A stretch of DNA of 64,000 nt, taken from NCBI GenBank assembly GCA_025041195.1, contig JAKCFM010000001.1:310001-374000 (forward strand), given 5' to 3'. Of this stretch, positions 50,443-63,580 are shown piece by piece (position 1 is the first letter of the stretch; each line of letters begins with the position of its first letter). A program made the position numbers and the translations under genes. The DNA comes from Halobacteriales archaeon YIM A00013. GTDB lineage: Archaea; Halobacteriota; Halobacteria; Halobacteriales; Haloarculaceae. Under the pieces are notes generated by a model. It did no database searches, was not told the origin of the DNA, and saw only the letters and a list, made by a program, of their open reading frames with translations.

Positions 50443-50823
50443 TAGGGTCCTGCGACTTAGACGAATTTCTTGCAATCCAAACACCATATCCCGTTTCAAT
50501 CCCGCATTGGGTTTCTAGGGTGCTGTAACGATTGACCACCTCAATATTGATGAAGCCGACCGCGTGTTTCAATCCCGCATTGGGTTTCTAGGGTGCTGTA
50601 ACGATTGACCACCTCAATATTGATGAAGCCGACCGCGTGTTTCAATCCCGCATTGGGTTTCTAGGGTGCTGTAACAATACAGTAAACGAGTGTGAGACAG
50701 TCGCAATGATAGTTTCAATCCCGCATTGGGTTTCTAGGGTGCTGTAACCCCATCGGGACTACTGCAATCTCAAACGTTCAGACGTCGTTTCAATCCCGCA
50801 TTGGGTTTCTAGGGTGCTGTAAC
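50443..50823 (-). CRISPR. CRISPR array 2 (5 repeats, plus a truncated sixth)
   Basis: Five 37-base repeats at 50493, 50566, 50639, 50712 and 50787. They start GTTTCAATCCCGCATTGGG and end CTAGGGTGCTGTAAC, so the middle and the end differ from arrays 1 and 3. The first and second spacers (50530-50565 and 50603-50638) are identical. A broken repeat TAGGGTCCTGCGAC at 50443-50456, followed by a 36-base spacer, carries the array 1/3 ending. The leader is at the right, and transcription is leftward. Confidence 0.95.
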
Positions 50824-50935
50824 AGGGGGTGATTGTTGGAGTATAGGCCCTATAATCGTTTTTGCACCGGCGAGAATCAGGACCGTCTTCGTGGACCCCC
50901 CCCCTGTACACTGATTTTATAAAGGTCCACGAAGG
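50824..50935 (-). promoter_or_regulatory. Leader and promoter of array 2
   Basis: Near-identical to the array 1 leader: arms CTTCGTGGACC (50887-50897) and GGTCCACGAAG (50924-50934) enclose the TATA box TTTTATAAA (about 50915-50923). Small differences include TGATTGTTGG and an extra C in the poly-C run. Confidence 0.8.
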
Positions 50936-51512: not shown

Positions 51513-51926
51513 TTACTGGCCTGTCGAGGAGTCGTCTTCGAGCACTGTTTCCGGTGCGACGCCACCGTGGTCAAGAAGTTCCCCATCGAAGGTTACCAGT
51601 GTTGCGTCTACATCGTCCGCTAAGGCAAGCAATATACAGTCCATGGCATAGAGTAAATTGTCTCGTTGTAATTCGTAGGCAGTGATGTGATCGCTTATTT
51701 CGGGGGCATAGATATCGACTCGGTTGTAGATATCCGATAACACTTCCTCAACACGCTCTTGTTCAATGTACTTTTTCTTTGTCAGCACAGATCGAAGCTC
51801 CATGAGGTTGATAATCGATGTACAGAAGTCGTGATCCTCGTTAAGCAATCGTGTTGCAATTTTCCCTCGTGACGGTTCGTCAGTTAGACTGGCAACAAAG
51901 ATATTAGTATCAACAAAAAGTTTCAT
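51513..51926 (-). CDS. PIN-domain toxin (VapC-like)
   Basis: 137 residues: MKLFVDTNIFVASL with the first catalytic aspartate, INLMELRSVL with the glutamate near residue 43, and LYAMDCILLALADDVDATLVTFDGELL with the two later acidic residues. PIN nucleases of this type cut tRNA or rRNA. The start overlaps the stop of the small upstream gene by two bases of ATGA, the usual antitoxin-toxin order. The pair lies between arrays 2 and 3. Confidence 0.85.
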   Translation of the reverse strand: MKLFVDTNIFVASLTDEPSRGKIATRLLNEDHDFCTSIINLMELRSVLTKKKYIEQERVEEVLSDIYNRVDIYAPEISDHITAYELQRDNLLYAMDCILLALADDVDATLVTFDGELLDHGGVAPETVLEDDSSTGQ

Positions 51927-52314: not shown

Positions 52315-53425
52315 GTTTCAAACCCGTTCTGTCTAGGGTACTGCGACAGGGACTCCGGAGTGAAAACGCACGTAGGCCGCTCAGTTTCAATCTCGTATTG
52401 GGTTTCTAGGGTCCTGCGACCGAACGCGCAGCAGTTGGATTGGGAGGAGTGGGAGGTTTCAATCCCGTTCTGGGTTTCTAGGGTCCTGCGACAGGTTCGG
52501 CAGCAGATAGACGACGCTGTTCGCGAGTTTCAATCCCGTTCTGGGTTTCTAGGGTCCTGCGACGAAGCGCGGCCCAAACGGACAATCGCAGTCGTCCTGT
52601 TTCAATCCCGTTCTGGGTTTCTAGGGTCCTGCGACGAAGCGCGGCCCAAACGGACAATCGCAGTCGTCCTGTTTCAATCCCGTTCTGGGTTTCTAGGGTC
52701 CTGCGACATCCTCTTGCTTAGCCCAGAAAGGCAGATTCCTATCGTTTCAATCCCGTTCTGGGTTTCTAGGGTCCTGCGACAGAATAGGTGTCATCGGTTG
52801 CATCGCCATCGACATGTTTCAATCCCGTTCTGGGTTTCTAGGGTCCTGCGACCCGACGGCCCGGTTGCGATCGAGATAGTCGAATAGGTTTCAATCCCGT
52901 TCTGGGTTTCTAGGGTCCTGCGACCATTCAAACCCATTCGACGGAACGTTTCGATGTTGTTTCAATCCCGTTCTGGGTTTCTAGGGTCCTGCGACGAAAC
53001 TGAGTCCGTTGGAGTCTGAAGCCGCGTATATGTTTCAATCCCGTTCTGGGTTTCTAGGGTCCTGCGACGTCGTCGTTTGGAGGGCTCGTCAGTCATCGAT
53101 AGTTTCAATCCCGTTCTGGGTTTCTAGGGTCCTGCGACTTCGTACACTGCGCGTGTGCCATCGTCGGCAGCCGTTTCAATCCCGTTCTGGGTTTCTAGGG
53201 TCCTGCGACTTCGCAGCATCGATATCGATGAAGTCTGTGGTAAGTTTCAATCCCGTTCTGGGTTTCTAGGGTCCTGCGACTTCGCAGCATCGATATCGAT
53301 GAAGTCTGTGGTAAGTTTCAATCCCGTTCTGGGTTTCTAGGGTCCTGCGACTCGGCGTGCGCAAGAATGGGGTTCTGTACGTCAAGGAGTTTCAATCCCG
53401 TTCTGGGTTTCTAGGGTCCTGCGAC
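52315..53425 (-). CRISPR. CRISPR array 3 (16 repeats, 15 spacers)
   Basis: Repeats start GTTTCAATCCCGTTCTGGG and end CTAGGGTCCTGCGAC. The leftmost, 52315-52347, is degenerate and short; the next, 52384-52420, has CTCGTATTGGG. Two adjacent spacer pairs are identical: 52564-52598 with 52636-52670, and 53210-53243 with 53281-53314. Leader is at the right, so crRNAs are transcribed leftward from next to cas2. The array lies directly at the end of the cas operon. Confidence 0.98.
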
Positions 53426-53536
53426 AGGGGGTGATAATTGGAGTATAGCCCCTATAATCGTTTCTACATCGGCGAGAATGAGGGCCGTCTTCGTGGACCC
53501 CCCCCTGTACACAGACCTTATAAAGGTCCACGAAGG
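53426..53536 (-). promoter_or_regulatory. Leader and promoter of array 3
   Basis: Arms CTTCGTGGACC (53489-53499) and GGTCCACGAAG (53525-53535) flank CCTTATAAAGG (about 53517-53526). Homology to leaders 1 and 2 ends at about 53536, seven bases from the cas2 stop codon. So transcripts from the cas operon may read into the array. Confidence 0.8.
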
Positions 53537-55431: not shown

Positions 55432-57582
55432 TCAGATATCCATTCCGAACTGTTCGAGGTTGATCGATTCGTGTTCTTCCTGCACGGCGCAGTGGAGATA
55501 CAGAGCATCGGTACCGATGGCAATCGACATCATTTCATCAGCAACTTTTAATTTAGTGAGGAAGAAGAACGCACCCAAATCGTAGTAGTTCTTCGCTTCC
55601 CTGGTAGTCTCTTTAATAGCGTAACAAAGGATGTTCTCCTGGGCCAATCCCTCACGTAAGTGCTCAATGCTCGTGATTCGTTTCGAACCGTCCGTAACAT
55701 CGAGATCGACAGAGAGACCACTCACAATCTCTGGGGAACGGGTACGTCTATGTTGTCCATCATCGCTTCGTAACCACGCGTATATATCAGTACCAGCTTC
55801 CAGCGCTACGTCGCGTCCGTATCCTTCGTCGTCGGTGTCTATCGTGCCATTGTAGGTACAGTATCCCACGACGTACGGCTCTGCTTGTTCAATGTCGTCG
55901 TTGTGTTCGTCCGGAACGACTTGTTTGAATTCGTCATTTGAGAGGAATTCGACGTCTCCGTATCGAAGTAAATAGAACAAGTTGTACGTTTTGACAGGGT
56001 TTTCAGCGTCAGTTCTTTGATCGTACACGAGCACTGAAATCGAATCACCACGATACCACCTCAGCGTTTGATCAACCCGCTCGTTGATGATATCTACATA
56101 TCGCTCGATATCTGACCGGTTAATGTGCTTTTCTTCCGAGCCGTAGTGCTGAGTAATGCGTTCCCAACCTTTCTCCCGGATCTGAGTTGCAACTTCGGAG
56201 TTTGCGTTTCGGGCTCGCCGCTGAATGTGGTGGTATGCCTCGGCAGCCGAGTAACGCCAGTCGAACGATGCTGGGTCGCGTGGATCATGATACGCCTCGG
56301 AGAGAGTACCGGTAAGTTCGGCGCGAGAGATTCGTGTGTCACACCTTTTATCCATCAGAGCGTCTGCCACGACCGGAGGGACGTAACATCGTGCTTGTTG
56401 GCACTCTGATTTCGTTCGGAGTCGGCCAAGTCGTTGGAGAAAGCTTGATCGGTTATGAGCCGAGAACACGAGCCGATCGACATCGAAATCGATCCCGACT
56501 TCGACAGCCGAGTTGCTTACCAGCACATCAAAGTCCTCAAGCTTAGCCTGAAGATCACCACGATGCAACCCGTCAATTCGAATGACTTCGGATTCATCGA
56601 GTTCCGCGTTGAGCTGTTGATAAACCTGCTCTACCTCGTGAAGTCCATCGAGAATGAAAACGGTTCGACCTGGACGGACTGCAAAGTCGAATGTTTCTTC
56701 CCAATCTGCATCGAGTAATTTATCTACAGTCTTGAATGTTGGAGCTGATCGAATATCAAGATCAACAGGTGGCATCACGGCCGACCATCCGTCTGTCGGC
56801 GTTTCACTGTACGCTTGCTGCTCGTTAGATTCTCGAAGACCTGTAATGCGCGTGTACGATGCACTCATTGCTTGCTCGAATCGCTGTTCGAGCCGTTCGG
56901 TCGGTGTGGCACTCAATAGTATGATCCGTGAGAGTGCACATTGATACTCCGGAAGATCGTACATCTCGTCAAGCAGGAATAGTAATGTATTCTGCTCTTT
57001 TCGTTCAGCTCGATGAAATTCGTCAACGACAATTGTGTCAAACTCATCCAAAGCACGAATGCGTGCCCCTGAATCACCTGAACGCCCATACAGATGTCGG
57101 CGCATCATCACGAAGATGTCTGGATTAGTGAGGACGATCACCTGTCCATCCCCGTTCCAAACGTTCTGGCTCAAAAGCCTATGAAGACGCTCTCCATTCG
57201 AGTTGGCGTTTGGATACGCCTTTGCGTGTTCCGTCCGAAGCGAATCAGCAGTGATCGTGAGGATTTCTGTATCAGCGCTGTGGCTAGGAAACTGTGAAGC
57301 AAGCTCTCTTTCGATATTTTTCTCTTGATCGTGAATGAGTGCGTTTGTTGGGTAGATGATAAGTGTGTGGTCGCCGCTCTCAATGATCGGTGAGATCCAT
57401 GACATCGTCTTGCCTCCTCCGGTTGGACTGTCGTTTACTGCCAGAAACGAGTCCTCGTTCACGAACAGGTCACGGAGATCTTGTTGATGAGCATATGGTT
57501 TGAATTCTGCACTCTCGGCTGGATATTCGGGATCTTTGTGCTGACGAAGTTCAACGCCGGACAGATGAAGTGGATCATTCAT
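55432..57582 (-). CDS. cas3': Type I-D Cas3' helicase
   Basis: 716 residues. DExH helicase: Walker A SPTGGGKT (residues 52-59), IIYPTNALIHDQ, box II VVDEFHRAE, SAT motif LLSATPT, and later VGIDFDVDRLVF and FLQRLGRLRT. There is no HD nuclease domain; in type I-D the HD domain is in Cas10d, as seen here. It unwinds target DNA for degradation. The start lies two bases after the csc1 stop. Confidence 0.93.
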   Translation of the reverse strand: MNDPLHLSGVELRQHKDPEYPAESAEFKPYAHQQDLRDLFVNEDSFLAVNDSPTGGGKTMSWISPIIESGDHTLIIYPTNALIHDQEKNIERELASQFPSHSADTEILTITADSLRTEHAKAYPNANSNGERLHRLLSQNVWNGDGQVIVLTNPDIFVMMRRHLYGRSGDSGARIRALDEFDTIVVDEFHRAERKEQNTLLFLLDEMYDLPEYQCALSRIILLSATPTERLEQRFEQAMSASYTRITGLRESNEQQAYSETPTDGWSAVMPPVDLDIRSAPTFKTVDKLLDADWEETFDFAVRPGRTVFILDGLHEVEQVYQQLNAELDESEVIRIDGLHRGDLQAKLEDFDVLVSNSAVEVGIDFDVDRLVFSAHNRSSFLQRLGRLRTKSECQQARCYVPPVVADALMDKRCDTRISRAELTGTLSEAYHDPRDPASFDWRYSAAEAYHHIQRRARNANSEVATQIREKGWERITQHYGSEEKHINRSDIERYVDIINERVDQTLRWYRGDSISVLVYDQRTDAENPVKTYNLFYLLRYGDVEFLSNDEFKQVVPDEHNDDIEQAEPYVVGYCTYNGTIDTDDEGYGRDVALEAGTDIYAWLRSDDGQHRRTRSPEIVSGLSVDLDVTDGSKRITSIEHLREGLAQENILCYAIKETTREAKNYYDLGAFFFLTKLKVADEMMSIAIGTDALYLHCAVQEEHESINLEQFGMDI

Positions 57583-57584
57583 CG

Positions 57585-58334
57585 TTATCGTTTCATTTTA
57601 AGGAATTCCACGTCTGATGGGAGTCGGATGGCATCTTCTCTATCCTCCTCATTGTGTTCGTTCGCGCCGTCTGTCCGGCGGAGTACTACGTGCTCGCCCT
57701 CATAAGTCGCCTGCACAATTAGAGGAGTTGGACGCATTCGCTTGGTGATCAGATTCCCGGTTGGCATCCGATCGGAGTCATACACCCCGATCGGGTGACC
57801 GAGTGAGAACTCACCGCTGTCACTGTCGACATTCAGTCGTTCTATCGCTAGCTTCGCCTTGCCGCGTTTTTTTCCAAGGCGAATGTATCCAGGGACGCTA
57901 TTTGCGAGCTCGTCGGTGGGTATGCCACGGCCCAGCAGCAAACACCGAAGTGCGTTTCCGTGACCGAGGACCCGGCGGCGACCGAACGTCGGCAGGTTTT
58001 TCCCTGCATCTGGATCCTTTTCTGCAGAGTAGTTGACAGTCGCGTAGTCGTCGGTGTTCGTGTTGTAAGTGGAGGTGATTCGGTTTGCAGTACCCTCGCC
58101 TCGGCCTATTGGAGCTGCAGGTGAGACGTATACCGTTTGTGCGATCTCCGCAGTGTCATCCAGATACGTCGGGTTGAATGAACGATCTATATACCGGCCT
58201 GATGCTAATCCAAACGCATAGTAGAGCGCTGTGTTGAGAAAGTACGACTCCGTATCTGCAAGCCGACCGAGCTCGCGGCTTGCAAACCAAATCTCACCTT
58301 GCGTTCGGATCGTTACTTCGAGTGCAGACTCCAT
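57585..58334 (-). CDS. csc1: Csc1 (Cas5 subunit of type I-D)
   Basis: 249 residues. N terminus VTIRTQGEIWFASRELGRLADTESYFLNTALYYAFGLA carries the Csc1/Cas5d signature (key piece IWFASRELGRLADTE). A glycine-rich RRRVLGHGNALRC and GYIRLGKKRGKAKL follow. It caps the 5' handle of the crRNA in the effector complex. Four bases after csc2. Confidence 0.9.
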   Translation of the reverse strand: MESALEVTIRTQGEIWFASRELGRLADTESYFLNTALYYAFGLASGRYIDRSFNPTYLDDTAEIAQTVYVSPAAPIGRGEGTANRITSTYNTNTDDYATVNYSAEKDPDAGKNLPTFGRRRVLGHGNALRCLLLGRGIPTDELANSVPGYIRLGKKRGKAKLAIERLNVDSDSGEFSLGHPIGVYDSDRMPTGNLITKRMRPTPLIVQATYEGEHVVLRRTDGANEHNEEDREDAIRLPSDVEFLKMKR

Positions 58335-58337
58335 AGG

Positions 58338-59327
58338 CTACTCGTCGGCTTGCTTGATGAACGCCTGTGAGGCATCTCTCTGGGTTTCTAGGATCTCTGC
58401 GAGCGAATCTCCCGAGGCAGTTCCAATCAGTTCTGAAATCGTCTCTTCAGGCACCCGTTCAATGTCGAGCCCGCCGTGTTCTCTCTCAATTCGGTCTTCG
58501 AACGATGATTGGAGGTGCTTACTAACAGTCTCAGGATCGTGGGCAGAGGCTGTGATGACCTCCTGAATGGATTCATGAGCGGTGCTGCTGTCATTCCGAA
58601 GGCGTCGAATGATGTCTCGTGTCAGTCCAAGATTCGCAGGACCTTCTTCGCTGCCTGTATACACGCCGAGGATGTGGTTCTTCACTCGGCCGAGACGAGT
58701 GGTAGCAGCACCGTACCGCTTGTTTTTAACTGTTACACCGAGCACAAACGCGAGTTCTTCTGGCGTCGCATCCCGGAGGGTTACGACCGTCGGGAACAGC
58801 GTACCAGGTTCGAAAAAGTCGGGCTCTCGAATCGTCGGCTCAGCTTCTTTCGCGTAGTCGTCACCAGGTGCGTTCTGGAATTTGTCATCGATAGCAACTG
58901 TAGCGTCCCGAAGGGTGTATGCAGTGTCGTACATCACTCGGGACGTAATTGATAGGGAGCTATCGGCATCAGAACTCGCAGCACTACCGTAGAGCACGCA
59001 CTCAACGCACTCTTGGCACATGCTGTTGACCTGCATCGTGCAGTCGGTGTCAAGGAGATCTCGTTGGAGTGATTTTCCGAATCGGCGGTCACTGCCGGTC
59101 TGTTTTCGCATGAACAGTAGTCCTGGTGAGTATGTTTCACGATCTTCACCAGATCCGACAGCAACACTTGCAAGATCAGCATTTTCACCATCGGTCGTGA
59201 AAATTGCGTGACTCTCCAACTCTCGAAGTACGAGAATACTCGTAAAGTTGCTCTGTGGAGCGATACTCATCTCGTCACGGTGAACGGTGCCACGTTCTAG
59301 TTCTGGGTAGGTATCGTAGTCGATCAT
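58338..59327 (-). CDS. csc2: Csc2 (Cas7 subunit of type I-D)
   Basis: 329 residues, backbone protein that polymerises on crRNA. Features: RGTVHRDEMSIAPQ near residue 12, KQTGSDRRFGKSLQRDLL near residue 76, a Cys-rich MCQECVECVLYG segment that probably binds zinc, and VTVKNKRYGAATTRLGRVKNHILGVYTG (key piece KRYGAATTRLGRV). ATG 59327 (MIDYDTYPEL) lies seven bases after the cas10d stop. Confidence 0.92.
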   Translation of the reverse strand: MIDYDTYPELERGTVHRDEMSIAPQSNFTSILVLRELESHAIFTTDGENADLASVAVGSGEDRETYSPGLLFMRKQTGSDRRFGKSLQRDLLDTDCTMQVNSMCQECVECVLYGSAASSDADSSLSITSRVMYDTAYTLRDATVAIDDKFQNAPGDDYAKEAEPTIREPDFFEPGTLFPTVVTLRDATPEELAFVLGVTVKNKRYGAATTRLGRVKNHILGVYTGSEEGPANLGLTRDIIRRLRNDSSTAHESIQEVITASAHDPETVSKHLQSSFEDRIEREHGGLDIERVPEETISELIGTASGDSLAEILETQRDASQAFIKQADE

Positions 59328-59334
59328 TGTATTG

Positions 59335-62304
59335 TCAGTTGTCTTCGTTGTTTTCTTGTGTTGATTCACGCTGTAGTCTCAAAGTTGCCGCGTAAAATCC
59401 ATCCGCAAAGTTGTTTTCCCGCTGTTTCAACAGCGAGGGTTTCCCTTCACAGCGGTCGGCAAGCAGTCGGGTGGCAAAGGCCTTGGCATAGCGTTCGATC
59501 CGTTCATCGAGATAATCACCATGCTCGCTTTGCTCTGCTGGGACGCGGTACACCTGATCACTTCGTTTAGGCAGTTTCTGGAGTCGTCCTGTGATGCGTA
59601 CTTCTGCTTCACTGGTATCCATTCGAAGTTGTTTCGTGTCTTTGACTGCTTTCACTGACTCTCGAAATACACGTTCGATAGTGTGGGGCTTTTTATTACC
59701 GTACACTGGACGGATCGCGTCGTACGCGAGTTCTGCGAGCGTTGTGATGTCGTCTTTCTCGTTTGATGTCATTAGTTGGTCATTTTCACTATTATTAGCT
59801 GTTACACTCTGCTTGGCAGTCATATACCCATCAAGGTGATTCGTTTCTTCAAGCAGATATTCGGAATCTCCACCGCTATCTGGGTTCTGTGCGATCCGCT
59901 TCAGGAGATACGATCCTGGGAGTGGTTTGTTCCGTGTTGCACGGAGATATTTCGGGAACAGTGCATCCTCTCTCTTCAGCCCATAGCCGAGTTGGACGAG
60001 TGCTGCTGCCGCTCCGAGCCGACCGCTAAGGTGTTTGAGTGGGATATCATGGCCGTAGAACTCTGCAACTGTAGTGAATCCGGCATCTAATTTCACCATT
60101 TCGTGGAAATCGCGTCCACGCACATCCGGTAATGGGGAGTGGGAGATGTACGCTCTGAGTCCTATCGTGGACGCAACTGCGATCCCGATGAAGACACCGA
60201 AGAACTGGAATTCGGTCTCGTTGTCCTGGGGTTTGTAAAACGAAAGTATCCGTGTTCCGAATCCAGTGTCAACATCGAAGCCCTGACTCAACTGTTCGAC
60301 CACCGACCGGCCCCCAGAATCATCTGCGCGCGTCGCTTCCCGTAGTACCGTCGCCAGCGATGCCGAGAGTTCTTGGGTATTGGGATCGAGTGGATTGAAG
60401 TCGTCATCGATTTGTTTGGTAGCTTCGAACACGGCTTCAGCAAGCCGACCAGTTCGAGTCATTGCCTCGCCGGTAAAGCGGGCGAACACTTCGTTGGCGT
60501 ACATCGACCACATTGCCGGTGTGTAGAAGTAATCCGGTACGAGGTGGATGAACAGCCGACCATCTTCCCTGCGTGTTGCACCCGTCTCTCTGAGCGAGAA
60601 TTCTACCTGACATGGAATACACACAAGAAGATTGTCTGGTTTTCCCGCATCCGCCGGAATCCGATTGGAGTAGCCAGCTTGGAAGGTTGTGAGCGACTTC
60701 GGTGCCTTCATGTCATCCTTTCTGGTACTCGTCGTTCCCCGGTTACAGAATGTACACGTTTTCCCGCGTCTGACCGTGTGGTGCTCCTCAAATGGATCGG
60801 TGAGTGCTTCCATCTCCTCTGTTGGATCAACTGCCCGTCCGCCAATGCGGAGGATGTCGGCAATGTATGCGCGAAGTTCGGTCTCGAATTCGCCAGTGTG
60901 TTCTTCCATCACGACTTCATTCCATTCTTCCGAGATATCGTTCAATCGCTCAGCGAGAAACCCAGCCAGATTCGGAGCGGCAGGTGACCAGCTTTTCCGA
61001 CGAACGAGATCAGCGATATGCTGTCCGATGGCGTAACTGTAGTCCCACTTACCACCGGCAGTAAGACTAAGTTCATCATCTTCGAGCGCACACAGTCCCT
61101 CCATGACATCATCGTCAACGCCAAACAGCCGACAGGTCGTGGTGAGCGCGTCATCTGCGAGATCTGCATCGACGAGTGGATCGACATATGAGCGTTTTAC
61201 TGTGTATGCCAATCGCGCATATCCGGGTGCAACACGAGTCGTTGTATCGATCTCAATGGGGAGGCGTTCGTTGAGCGATTCCATTGTCTCCTGCATACTA
61301 TCGGTCGGATCGGTGGTGGGATCTGCGTCCTGTTTCGCTTTTACTGAGATCGCGAGGAGGACATTGGGCGCGCCGGCGTAGAAGAAGTCTTGATTGTTGA
61401 TCCCATAGAATCCCTGTGACCGCGTTGCAAGATTCTCTGCGAGCTGTTCACGATTCTTATACGCCGGATGTGCGTCGTTGATTTCCGTTTTGAGACGTTC
61501 GTAGATGTCTCCAATCAGTGGCTCATCTAGCTGCATGTCAGGAGCATCACTGTCTGTGAGGTACACACACCCATCCTGATAGATTAAAAACAATTCATAT
61601 TCGTTCTGCTCTGCCAGCACCATGTTAGTGACGCCGTTGAGAATGTTGGTGAACTCGCCTTTGACGTCGTCGAGTGTGTGATGGCGGAGTTCAAGGTTAG
61701 CACCTGGGTACGCGGTCGCAAGATTCGACAGATTACGGGTTCCTGCTGCTTCCTCGGGCGTTGCACACGATGCGAATCCGTCTGCGACCCGAACGAACGG
61801 CCTAAGTTTGTTGTAGGTCCGGGTGGAATGCTCTGGATTGGATTTCCAACTATTTTCATGGTCTACTGCGCATGCGTGGAAATCCTCAAGCCGAAGTGAC
61901 GGAGCGAACTCCCATAGCCCGAGGCGTGTAACGAGGGTGTCTACGGTTGCTTTGTCTATGTCGTATTCGGTGTGAACGGTAGTGTCATCTCTGAGTTTGT
62001 GAAGATCGTGGATGACAAACAGCGCTAGTGTCTGCCGGAGTTCTGTGTCTGAGAGTTCGAATGCCCCAAAAGTGGGCGCGATCGTGTTGAGTCGGGTAAT
62101 AGCGAATGCCCCACTCCGGACATGGTTCGCCATCGATTGATCGGTCAGTTCGTATTCGGCGAAGTCGATGGCACATTTTGCAGGAATGAATCCCCATCCC
62201 AAATCGATCAGCTTCGGATCAACCTCAGAAAGGAATTCAGAGAGGACATCAGTTTGAACATCCTCAAAGAGACCGAATAGATCTTCACCATCTGATGCAC
62301 TCAT
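59335..62304 (-). CDS. csc3: Cas10d/Csc3 large subunit with HD nuclease domain
   Basis: 989 residues; defines the type I-D subtype. HD nuclease elements are NHVRSG (His61) and VIHDLHKL (His99-Asp100), so target DNA cleavage is expected here rather than in Cas3'. A zinc finger is formed by CTFCNRG (near residue 516) and CIPCQVEF (near residue 560). No GGDD cyclase motif is apparent. In type I-D the small subunit Cas11d can be made from an internal start in the 3' third of this gene; I cannot place it. The start lies inside the end of the small upstream ORF. Confidence 0.92.
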   Translation of the reverse strand: MSASDGEDLFGLFEDVQTDVLSEFLSEVDPKLIDLGWGFIPAKCAIDFAEYELTDQSMANHVRSGAFAITRLNTIAPTFGAFELSDTELRQTLALFVIHDLHKLRDDTTVHTEYDIDKATVDTLVTRLGLWEFAPSLRLEDFHACAVDHENSWKSNPEHSTRTYNKLRPFVRVADGFASCATPEEAAGTRNLSNLATAYPGANLELRHHTLDDVKGEFTNILNGVTNMVLAEQNEYELFLIYQDGCVYLTDSDAPDMQLDEPLIGDIYERLKTEINDAHPAYKNREQLAENLATRSQGFYGINNQDFFYAGAPNVLLAISVKAKQDADPTTDPTDSMQETMESLNERLPIEIDTTTRVAPGYARLAYTVKRSYVDPLVDADLADDALTTTCRLFGVDDDVMEGLCALEDDELSLTAGGKWDYSYAIGQHIADLVRRKSWSPAAPNLAGFLAERLNDISEEWNEVVMEEHTGEFETELRAYIADILRIGGRAVDPTEEMEALTDPFEEHHTVRRGKTCTFCNRGTTSTRKDDMKAPKSLTTFQAGYSNRIPADAGKPDNLLVCIPCQVEFSLRETGATRREDGRLFIHLVPDYFYTPAMWSMYANEVFARFTGEAMTRTGRLAEAVFEATKQIDDDFNPLDPNTQELSASLATVLREATRADDSGGRSVVEQLSQGFDVDTGFGTRILSFYKPQDNETEFQFFGVFIGIAVASTIGLRAYISHSPLPDVRGRDFHEMVKLDAGFTTVAEFYGHDIPLKHLSGRLGAAAALVQLGYGLKREDALFPKYLRATRNKPLPGSYLLKRIAQNPDSGGDSEYLLEETNHLDGYMTAKQSVTANNSENDQLMTSNEKDDITTLAELAYDAIRPVYGNKKPHTIERVFRESVKAVKDTKQLRMDTSEAEVRITGRLQKLPKRSDQVYRVPAEQSEHGDYLDERIERYAKAFATRLLADRCEGKPSLLKQRENNFADGFYAATLRLQRESTQENNEDN

Positions 62305-62566
62305 CTTTTTCCTCCTGTTCTGACATTTCGATTACGATGTACTCGGACGGCCAGATCAGTCTTCCCGAAATTTGAAATCTTTTCCCTCTTTTGGAGATTT
62401 TTTTGTTGGAAAGGATGATATGTGACTGTCCATCCTGTGTTTCCAACTGGTGAATATATCTCGGTTCTTTCGGATATCTTGGATTTTTTGACACCCATTC
62501 TACTTGTTCGATGTCCACGATCACCTCGACTGGATTCGGTTGCATATTGATGCCAATTATTACCAC
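62285..62566 (-). CDS. Small ORF between cas6 and cas10d
   Basis: 93 codons from GTG 62566, or 86 from ATG 62545. After MQPNPVEVIVDIEQVEWV the sequence alternates polar and hydrophobic residues (HIILSNKKISKRGKRFQISGRLI then EYIVIEMSE), like a small beta-barrel. It uses AGA arginine codons heavily (several), unlike the neighbours. It overlaps the cas10d start by 20 bases, so translation may be coupled. A TACATA sequence at 62591-62596 (minus strand) lies about 26 bases before GTG 62566. It may be an accessory subunit, or a toxin controlled by the guide-like RNA next to it. I recognise no family. Confidence 0.5.
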   Translation of the reverse strand: MVIIGINMQPNPVEVIVDIEQVEWVSKNPRYPKEPRYIHQLETQDGQSHIILSNKKISKRGKRFQISGRLIWPSEYIVIEMSEQEEKDECIRW

Positions 62567-62590
62567 TCGAAGTTACTTGGTCTTTGGGCC

Positions 62591-62604
62591 TATGTAGAGA
62601 TCGA
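62591..62604 (+). promoter_or_regulatory. Site matched by the pseudo-spacer
   Basis: TATGTAGAGATCGA matches the first 14 bases of the pseudo-spacer (TATGTCGAGATAGA, from 62688) at all positions except 6 and 12. It overlaps a TATA-like sequence of the minus strand located about 26 bases before the small ORF, and is about 30 bases to the right of AATTATTA, which could be a plus-strand promoter. Confidence 0.6.
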
Positions 62605-62650
62605 CGCAATTCGCGATAAGCAAAATCGCAGTATTGATATGATTTTCCGT

Positions 62651-62740
62651 CCCATTGGTTATTGGGAATCCAATACGGGATTGAAATTATGTCGAGATAG
62701 AAATCGTCACTAGGAAACCCATACGGGATTCTCATTTTTC
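62651..62740 (+). ncRNA. CreA-like guide RNA candidate with two degenerate CRISPR repeats
   Basis: On the + strand, CCAATACGGGATTGAAAT (62670-62687) equals the 3' half of the array repeat in crRNA sense, with handle ATTGAAAT. A short pseudo-spacer starts at 62688. Then CTAGGAAACCCATACGGGAT (62710-62729) equals most of a second repeat, followed by TTTTT (62735-62739), a plausible terminator. The loop ATAC resembles the atypical array 3 repeat at 52384. The element overlaps the cas6 stop codon and runs against the cas operon. Possible promoter TTGATATG near 62634. In Haloarcula type I-B the CreTA module occupies the same gap between cas6 and cas8. Confidence 0.65.
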
Positions 62741-63580
62741 TACCACCACATCAATAGTTCCGCAGCCACGGGCAACGAAGCCACCTACACCAGCATACTC
62801 TCCGAACAACGCAAGAGCTGTTACCGCTGTCCGGATTGCCTCGCTTGCACCTTTGAACTTATAGGTGCATTGTCCAGAGAAGCCCTGGCGTTGGATGGGT
62901 CTACCATCTTCACCCCGGTTCACGAGCACGCTATCGGAGTCAAGCGTCCGAAAGTCGGGTTTCTCGATGAGGTTCTGCTCGAAGTCCTCTCGAACCAATC
63001 CCAATTCGAGTTCATCGGCCTTCTCTGCTGGAACTGTCTTATTCCATCTGCGCAGTAGAGAACGGAACGTGCTAGCCCTGTGTGGGAACATCGTGGTGAT
63101 CTCAGGTGTTTCTCGGATACACGTTGGCGTCCGGAATTCCATTTCTATCTCGAAGTTCGGCGGGAGATCATCCACGACCTCAGCTGCGTCGGTTAACAGC
63201 TCCTCATGTGTTCTGTTTGTGCTCGCGAAATTGCGCACCTGGAAAACCCCGTTATAGAGTTCCAGCGAATCGCCGCTGAATACGAATGCGTCAGCGAGCG
63301 CTTCAAACACCTCTTGGTCACGAGGATCTGTGACACCCAGGGTGAGTTCGTAGGTTTCGTCATTCACCACCCGCTGGTGGTGATCCCGATCGCTCGAAGC
63401 AAACGTTCCCAGCAAGCCACTATTATGGAGGCTTCCGATTGGTGAATCGTGAATGTGCGAACTCAGCGAATCAGATACGTCACCGAGCTTTGATAGGAGC
63501 GCACCGTACGTCTGGTACCCGTTCCATGTCGGGATGTGAAACGGTCGTTCTGGCTCCAGTTCGAGGGTGATATGTCTCAT
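62732..63580 (-). CDS. cas6: CRISPR RNA endonuclease Cas6
   Basis: 282 residues; two ferredoxin-like folds with the glycine-rich loop FGEYAGVGGFVARGCGTIDV near the C terminus. His25-region HIPTWNGYQTYG at the N terminus and conserved ARTF-like RASTFRSLLRRWN near residue 167. It cuts the repeat to leave the ATTGAAAC handle. First gene of the cas operon; its stop codon lies within the second degenerate repeat described next to it. Which histidine is catalytic cannot be decided by eye. Confidence 0.9.
   Translation of the reverse strand: MRHITLELEPERPFHIPTWNGYQTYGALLSKLGDVSDSLSSHIHDSPIGSLHNSGLLGTFASSDRDHHQRVVNDETYELTLGVTDPRDQEVFEALADAFVFSGDSLELYNGVFQVRNFASTNRTHEELLTDAAEVVDDLPPNFEIEMEFRTPTCIRETPEITTMFPHRASTFRSLLRRWNKTVPAEKADELELGLVREDFEQNLIEKPDFRTLDSDSVLVNRGEDGRPIQRQGFSGQCTYKFKGASEAIRTAVTALALFGEYAGVGGFVARGCGTIDVVVEK

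Follow-up and report, generated by a model that had tools for sequence, protein, structure and literature searches.

A putative CreA/CreR-type guide element inside the type I-D cas operon of haloarchaea

The window analysed here is a stretch of 64,000 nt from the Halobacteriales archaeon YIM A00013 (assembly GCA_025041195.1, contig JAKCFM010000001.1, positions 310,001 to 374,000), and its minus strand carries a type I-D CRISPR-Cas locus. In the gap between cas6 and cas10d of this locus, the plus strand probably encodes a mimic of a CRISPR RNA (crRNA) of the CreA/CreR type, here called creA, through which the type I-D effector operon would be autorepressed; we hold this reading with moderate confidence. 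What appears to be new is the combination of such a guide with a type I-D effector, as predicted from the sequence, guides of this kind being already known for other types. A preliminary description of the window had proposed a CreA/CreR-like guide running antisense to the I-D cas operon, and the comparative data presented below support that proposal.

The guide element and its target in the window

Two degenerate plus-strand repeats, a short pseudo-spacer and a T-run lie between cas6 and cas10d, as the preliminary description had claimed. The first repeat, psiR1 (62651..62687, plus strand), has CGGGATTGAAAT at its 3′ end and resembles the repeats of the CRISPR arrays of the window, which read GTCGCAGGACCCTAGAAACCCAGAACGGGATTGAAAC in the direction of the cas genes and end in CGGGATTGAAAC. 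The identity is 88% over 24 nt and 90% over 20 nt; in an ungapped comparison, 22 of 37 bases agree overall and 12 of the last 15. The crRNA handle of psiR1 is the 8-nt sequence ATTGAAAT at 62680-62687 on the plus strand. It is followed by the pseudo-spacer psiS (62688..62705, plus strand), the putative guide of the crRNA mimic, which begins with TATGTCGAGATAGAAATC and whose seed comprises positions 1-5 and 7-11. The second degenerate repeat, psiR2 (62706..62734, plus strand), is shortened, being identical to the array repeat at 18 of 25 bases and 80% identical to psiR1 across 25 nt. A run of five T (62735..62739, plus strand) may terminate transcription of the guide RNA; a simple scan found no stem-loop terminator. 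The guide element has no match in Rfam, and the crRNA mimic is predicted to fold no better than shuffled sequences.

The target of psiS is located at 62591..62604 on the plus strand, 84 bases away from the guide and 97 nt from it when measured start to start. Guide and target agree at 12 of 14 bases, positions 6 and 12 being the only mismatches, exactly as described previously, and all ten seed positions are paired with 62591-62601. Directly upstream of the target stands GGCC (62587..62590, plus strand), the candidate protospacer adjacent motif (PAM), GCN. Among 2000 dinucleotide shuffles of the gap, a seed match arose in four, in keeping with the chance of roughly 1 in 1000 that had been estimated earlier by hand, and a seed match with a GGCN 5′ flank arose in none. 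The combination GGCN-TATGTNGAGAT occurs a single time in the 3.73-Mb genome of this organism.

The pattern of pairing is the one characteristic of CreA/CreR guides. Every sixth base of the guide is flipped out in the I-D Cascade (PMC10212523), which documents for this subtype the six-base periodicity invoked in the preliminary description. That effector recognises GTN or GTH as its PAM, the G at -3 being read by Cas10d (PMC10212523), and the GGCN flank fits the known I-D PAMs in form, with G in the -3 position and no constraint on the last base. For the CreA of haloarchaeal type I-B, mutation has established that pairing at 1-5 and 7-11 is required and that positions 6 and 12 are free (PMC8501985).

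Conservation and co-variation of the cassette

A cassette of about 340-480 nt between cas6 and cas10d is present in seven haloarchaeal I-D loci belonging to five lineages. Besides the window, these are L048 (Halarchaeum acidiphilum), L050 and L051 (two genomes of the same genus as H. acidiphilum), L052 (Natrialba asiatica), L099 (a plasmid of Halococcus dombrowskii) and L115 (a genome from the window's own family). In all seven, an antisense psiR1 ending in the handle ATTGAAAY is accompanied by a pseudo-spacer, for which the same cassette contains a match; psiR1 of L048 was compared with the repeat of L052, because the array of L048 itself is not on its contig. The start-to-start distance of guide and target is 92 nt in five relatives, as against 97 nt in the window. 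GGCN directly precedes the target in 7/7 loci, including L115, where the target lies on the opposite strand.

Counted by guide position over the seven loci, positions 1-5 and 9-11 match in all, position 7 in six and position 8 in five, the two non-matching loci having G-U-type wobbles there. Position 6, by comparison, is matched in two loci only, and positions 12 and 17 in none. The seed pairs at 10/10 positions in five loci and at nine and eight positions in the remaining two. From lineage to lineage the guides are different words, yet every one pairs with the target in its own cassette, at 47 of 50 seed bases over the five lineages, which is the best of the 120 possible pairings, the next one reaching 43. 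Such compensatory co-variation of guide and target over five lineages excludes a chance match. A scan of all collected I-D loci for further guide-target pairs gave no other convincing case.

In a tree of Cas10d, the cassette is confined to a clade of nine loci, of which seven carry it, and three changes are needed to explain its distribution. Most simply, these would be one gain and two losses. Both losses are clean, with cas6 running straight into cas10d in L047 and L049; they are the only members of this clade that keep the operon without the match and the repeats, the situation that the preliminary description had regarded as telling against a guide. In the seven others, the repeat, guide, target and mismatch positions are kept while the letters co-vary, which is the outcome of the alignment of relatives that it had suggested. 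The cassette itself can evolve fast: L050 and L051 are 90% identical in cas6 and 95% in cas10d, compared with 50-64% in the cassette, as if it had been exchanged or were under fast diversifying change. The parts of the case that can be read from the sequences themselves are the repeats with their guide, the target with its flank, the co-variation, the order of the genes and the single origin with two losses.

The type I-D locus, the small open reading frame and the bridge frame

The minus strand of the window holds a complete type I-D locus in the order cas6d, gap, cas10d, csc2, csc1, cas3′, cas4, cas1, cas2 and arrays; in most haloarchaeal I-D loci, the gap between cas6 and cas10d is absent or short. 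cas6 (62732..63580, minus strand; PADLOC Cas6d, 407 bits) encodes the nuclease that presumably matures the guide RNA. The first effector gene behind the target is cas10d/csc3 (59335..62304, minus strand; TIGR03174, 509 bits), which encodes the large subunit and has the HD motif HDLHK at residue 99. The remaining effector genes of the same operon, csc2, csc1 and cas3′ (TIGR03157, TIGR03159 and TIGR03158), occupy 55432..59369 on the minus strand. The Cas11d-like C-terminal part of Cas10d is a separate open reading frame (ORF) in many haloarchaeal I-D loci (L044-L055, L090, L099, L115); in the window, Cas10d is one ORF of 989 aa.

Several features of the arrays were observed in passing. The leader-side ends of the two CRISPR arrays of the window (50787-50935 and 53389-53536) are near-identical (88% over 117 nt and 92% over 39 nt), which suggests a duplication of the array with its leader. 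Inside the arrays, three pairs of neighbouring identical repeat-spacer units, at 52527-52670, 53173-53315 and 50493-50638, represent recent tandem duplications. Between the two arrays lies a PIN-family toxin-like ORF (51513-51926; TIGR00305, 30 bits, barely above the cut-off). In many of the I-D loci L038-L055, arrays border the cas genes at both ends and are oppositely oriented.

Downstream of the target, the window has a small ORF of 86 aa (MQPNPVEV...; 62285..62545, minus strand), whose stop lies inside cas10d and which may start earlier, at a GTG at 62566. A minus-strand small ORF follows the target in 7/7 loci, in the same frame relation to cas10d, the start region of which is overlapped by the stop of the ORF. 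As the target is upstream of an ORF that overlaps the start of cas10d, the controlled transcript should carry both; no obvious terminator was seen between them. The sequence of the small ORF is not common to all seven loci. The proteins of L051 and L115 are homologous (E=2e-9), and that of the window fits them weakly, with no pairwise match to L115. Homologues were found neither in plasmids, Pfam, PHROGs, PADLOC or the PDB sequences nor, at a convincing E-value, outside creA loci in 293 genomes. Coding constraint is weak in the small ORFs of L048, L052 and L099, with nonsynonymous to synonymous codon differences of 24:13, 22:11 and 19:8. Fold models of the small protein were weak (predicted local distance difference test, pLDDT, 66), and Foldseek gave only OB-fold-like PDB matches at E 0.01 or worse, so that an OB-fold reading is not relied on.

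A second frame spans the gap. This bridge frame (62301..62735, minus strand, 144 codons) opens at an ATG that overlaps the stop codon of cas6 and extends as far as the start of cas10d, with creA embedded in antisense. It is open in 7/7 loci, and shuffled gaps stayed open in only 2 of 5000 cases for the window and in 2 to 61 of 5000 locus by locus. We infer from this that selection has favoured uninterrupted translation from cas6 into cas10d.

Autorepression, addiction and comparison with known systems

How might such a guide work? A short RNA would be transcribed antisense to the cas operon, Cas6d would cut psiR1 to give the handle ATTGAAAU, and the guide RNA would load into Cas10d-Csc2-Csc1. 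The effector would then locate the nearby GCN-flanked site through ten paired seed bases (1-5 and 7-11), bases 6 and 12 being flipped out. The guide-target match would be too short for interference, so that the effector, bound where the minus-strand promoter initiates transcription, would repress this promoter. The target at 62591..62604 presumably overlaps the core promoter of the minus-strand transcript, which would start with the fast-evolving small ORF and continue into cas10d-csc2-csc1-cas3′, and repression would be lifted when the effector is limiting or inhibited. An internal promoter in the I-D gap is plausible in view of Haloarcula hispanica, where creTA lies between cas6 and cas8, as the preliminary description stated correctly (PMC8501985), and where this gap holds a strong promoter driving cas8 to cas2 (PMC9458426). 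Owing to the overlap of the small ORF with cas10d, both should be hit by repression, which makes autorepression of the effector the minimal reading; the small ORF may in addition be a toxin of the CreT/CreP type. Guide transcription and processing, the position of the promoter, repression and the part played by the small ORF are deduced here from the arrangement of the sequence.

Several observations weigh against this reading. L050 has two seed mismatches, one of them a G-T wobble, and L115 combines one wobble with a target on the opposite strand. Of the seven loci, only the window has a recognisable psiR2. The archaeal promoter was placed by eye only, a sigma-70 promoter scan having been set aside as not applicable to archaea. 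The candidate PAM was not confirmed by array spacers, either in comparisons of three arrays with phages and of spacers with all collected DNA or in four exact scans of viral contigs; the sole exact spacer match covers just the 20 middle bases with unmatched ends and is not a convincing protospacer. A pure autoregulator would have no need of the small ORF. Finally, the bridge frame suggests that read-through from cas6 reaches cas10d, in which case control by an internal promoter would weaken.

An alternative interpretation, which is possible but which we consider rather unlikely, is a CreTA/CrePA-like addiction module, in which the guide is the antitoxin, the small ORF or its RNA is a toxin released upon failure of the I-D effector, and the effect on cas10d is secondary. 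The layout is that of the Acinetobacter I-F CreTA, an insert of about 400 bp in a continuous cas operon with a mini-ORF divergent from creA and downstream of the target (PMC10097628); moreover, no small ORF is present wherever creA is absent, and divergence in the cassette greatly outpaces that of its cas genes (L050/L051). The ORFs of L048, L052 and L099 begin with the rare codons ATG ATA GCT ARG, and all six Arg codons of the window's small ORF are AGA, although this usage may merely reflect an AT-rich stretch. On the other hand, a toxin sequence common to the lineages was not found, and the fold model of the small protein is poor (best PDB matches OB-fold proteins). In addition, with the ORF stop overlapping cas10d, production of the toxin would require cas10d mRNA; no terminator was seen in between.

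Autorepression and addiction might also coincide. One guide RNA would then control a fused output, namely a toxin-like, fast-evolving small protein and the translationally overlapping I-D effector operon, a proposal that we put forward only tentatively and regard as unlikely. If it is true, effector failure or inhibition by an anti-CRISPR would induce fresh effector and toxin together, and CreTA/CrePA and CreR would be merged in a single transcript, in a subtype with the HD nuclease in its large subunit.

That the guide mainly regulates its own plus-strand promoter, as negative feedback on the guide RNA and not on the minus-strand transcript, seems very improbable. The target is indeed on the upstream side of the guide gene, with a TATA-like TTGATATG between them in the window, but, at some 40-60 nt upstream of where the guide probably starts, it falls outside the core promoter of the guide gene, and ACTCRAA, a conserved block adjoining the target in five loci, reads on the minus strand as a transcription factor B recognition element. 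A dead mini-CRISPR remnant, matching adjacent DNA by chance or self-acquisition, is hardly credible despite the degenerate repeats and a psiR2 decayed or absent in most loci, for guide and target have changed in step across five lineages without loss of the seed, the spacing, flank and handle are conserved, and the element persists in 7/9 clade members.

We return to the favoured reading, autorepression of the effector operon, and to the systems it resembles. Two elements of the common core of CreA/CreR guides are found: ectopic degenerate repeat(s) with a conserved crRNA 5′ handle in 7/7 loci, and a guide that matches a nearby site in part, at positions 1-5 and 7-11. CreA-type guides adjoin cas6 in type I or III systems (PMC10097628). 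The element shares with the haloarchaeal I-B CreTA its degenerate repeat(s), a guide pairing at exactly 1-5 and 7-11, a nearby flanked target, and a place beside cas6 before the large-subunit gene. Different from I-B CreTA, it would serve a I-D effector; its guide is encoded antisense to the operon and diverges from the target gene, its candidate PAM is GCN rather than TTC, and its downstream ORF overlaps cas10d and is only a putative toxin. The Acinetobacter I-F CreTA (PMC10097628) likewise is an insert of about 400 bp in a continuous cas operon with creA divergent from the small ORF behind the target, but it is bacterial, of type I-F, with a mini-ORF of 33 bp and two good repeats with hairpins. 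CrePA also has a guide repressing a small protein gene adjoining CRISPR-Cas; the small protein here is without detectable relatives and a putative toxin at most. CreR, a cas-regulating RNA of types I-B, I-E and V-A as summarised in PMC13131331, is a crRNA-like RNA partly matching a promoter within its own cas operon, and autorepression would be expected here as well. Type I-D is not among the types named there, and here a small ORF stands between the promoter and the first cas gene. The preliminary description knew of no such element for I-D; we too found no I-D case of a CreA/CreR guide in the open-access papers searched, and the supplements of the original CreR and CreTA papers may list one. 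The term "I-D" is absent from PMC8501985, PMC9458426, PMC10097628 and PMC12737573.

With seeds that differ among the five lineages, the seven natural variants provide ready pairs for the study of seed rules, of the haloarchaeal I-D PAM and of regulation versus addiction. RNA-guided self-regulation would be extended to type I-D, a hybrid of types I and III; since the nuclease domain of I-D is built into the effector, a self-matching guide in these haloarchaea would have to avoid the cutting of its own locus.
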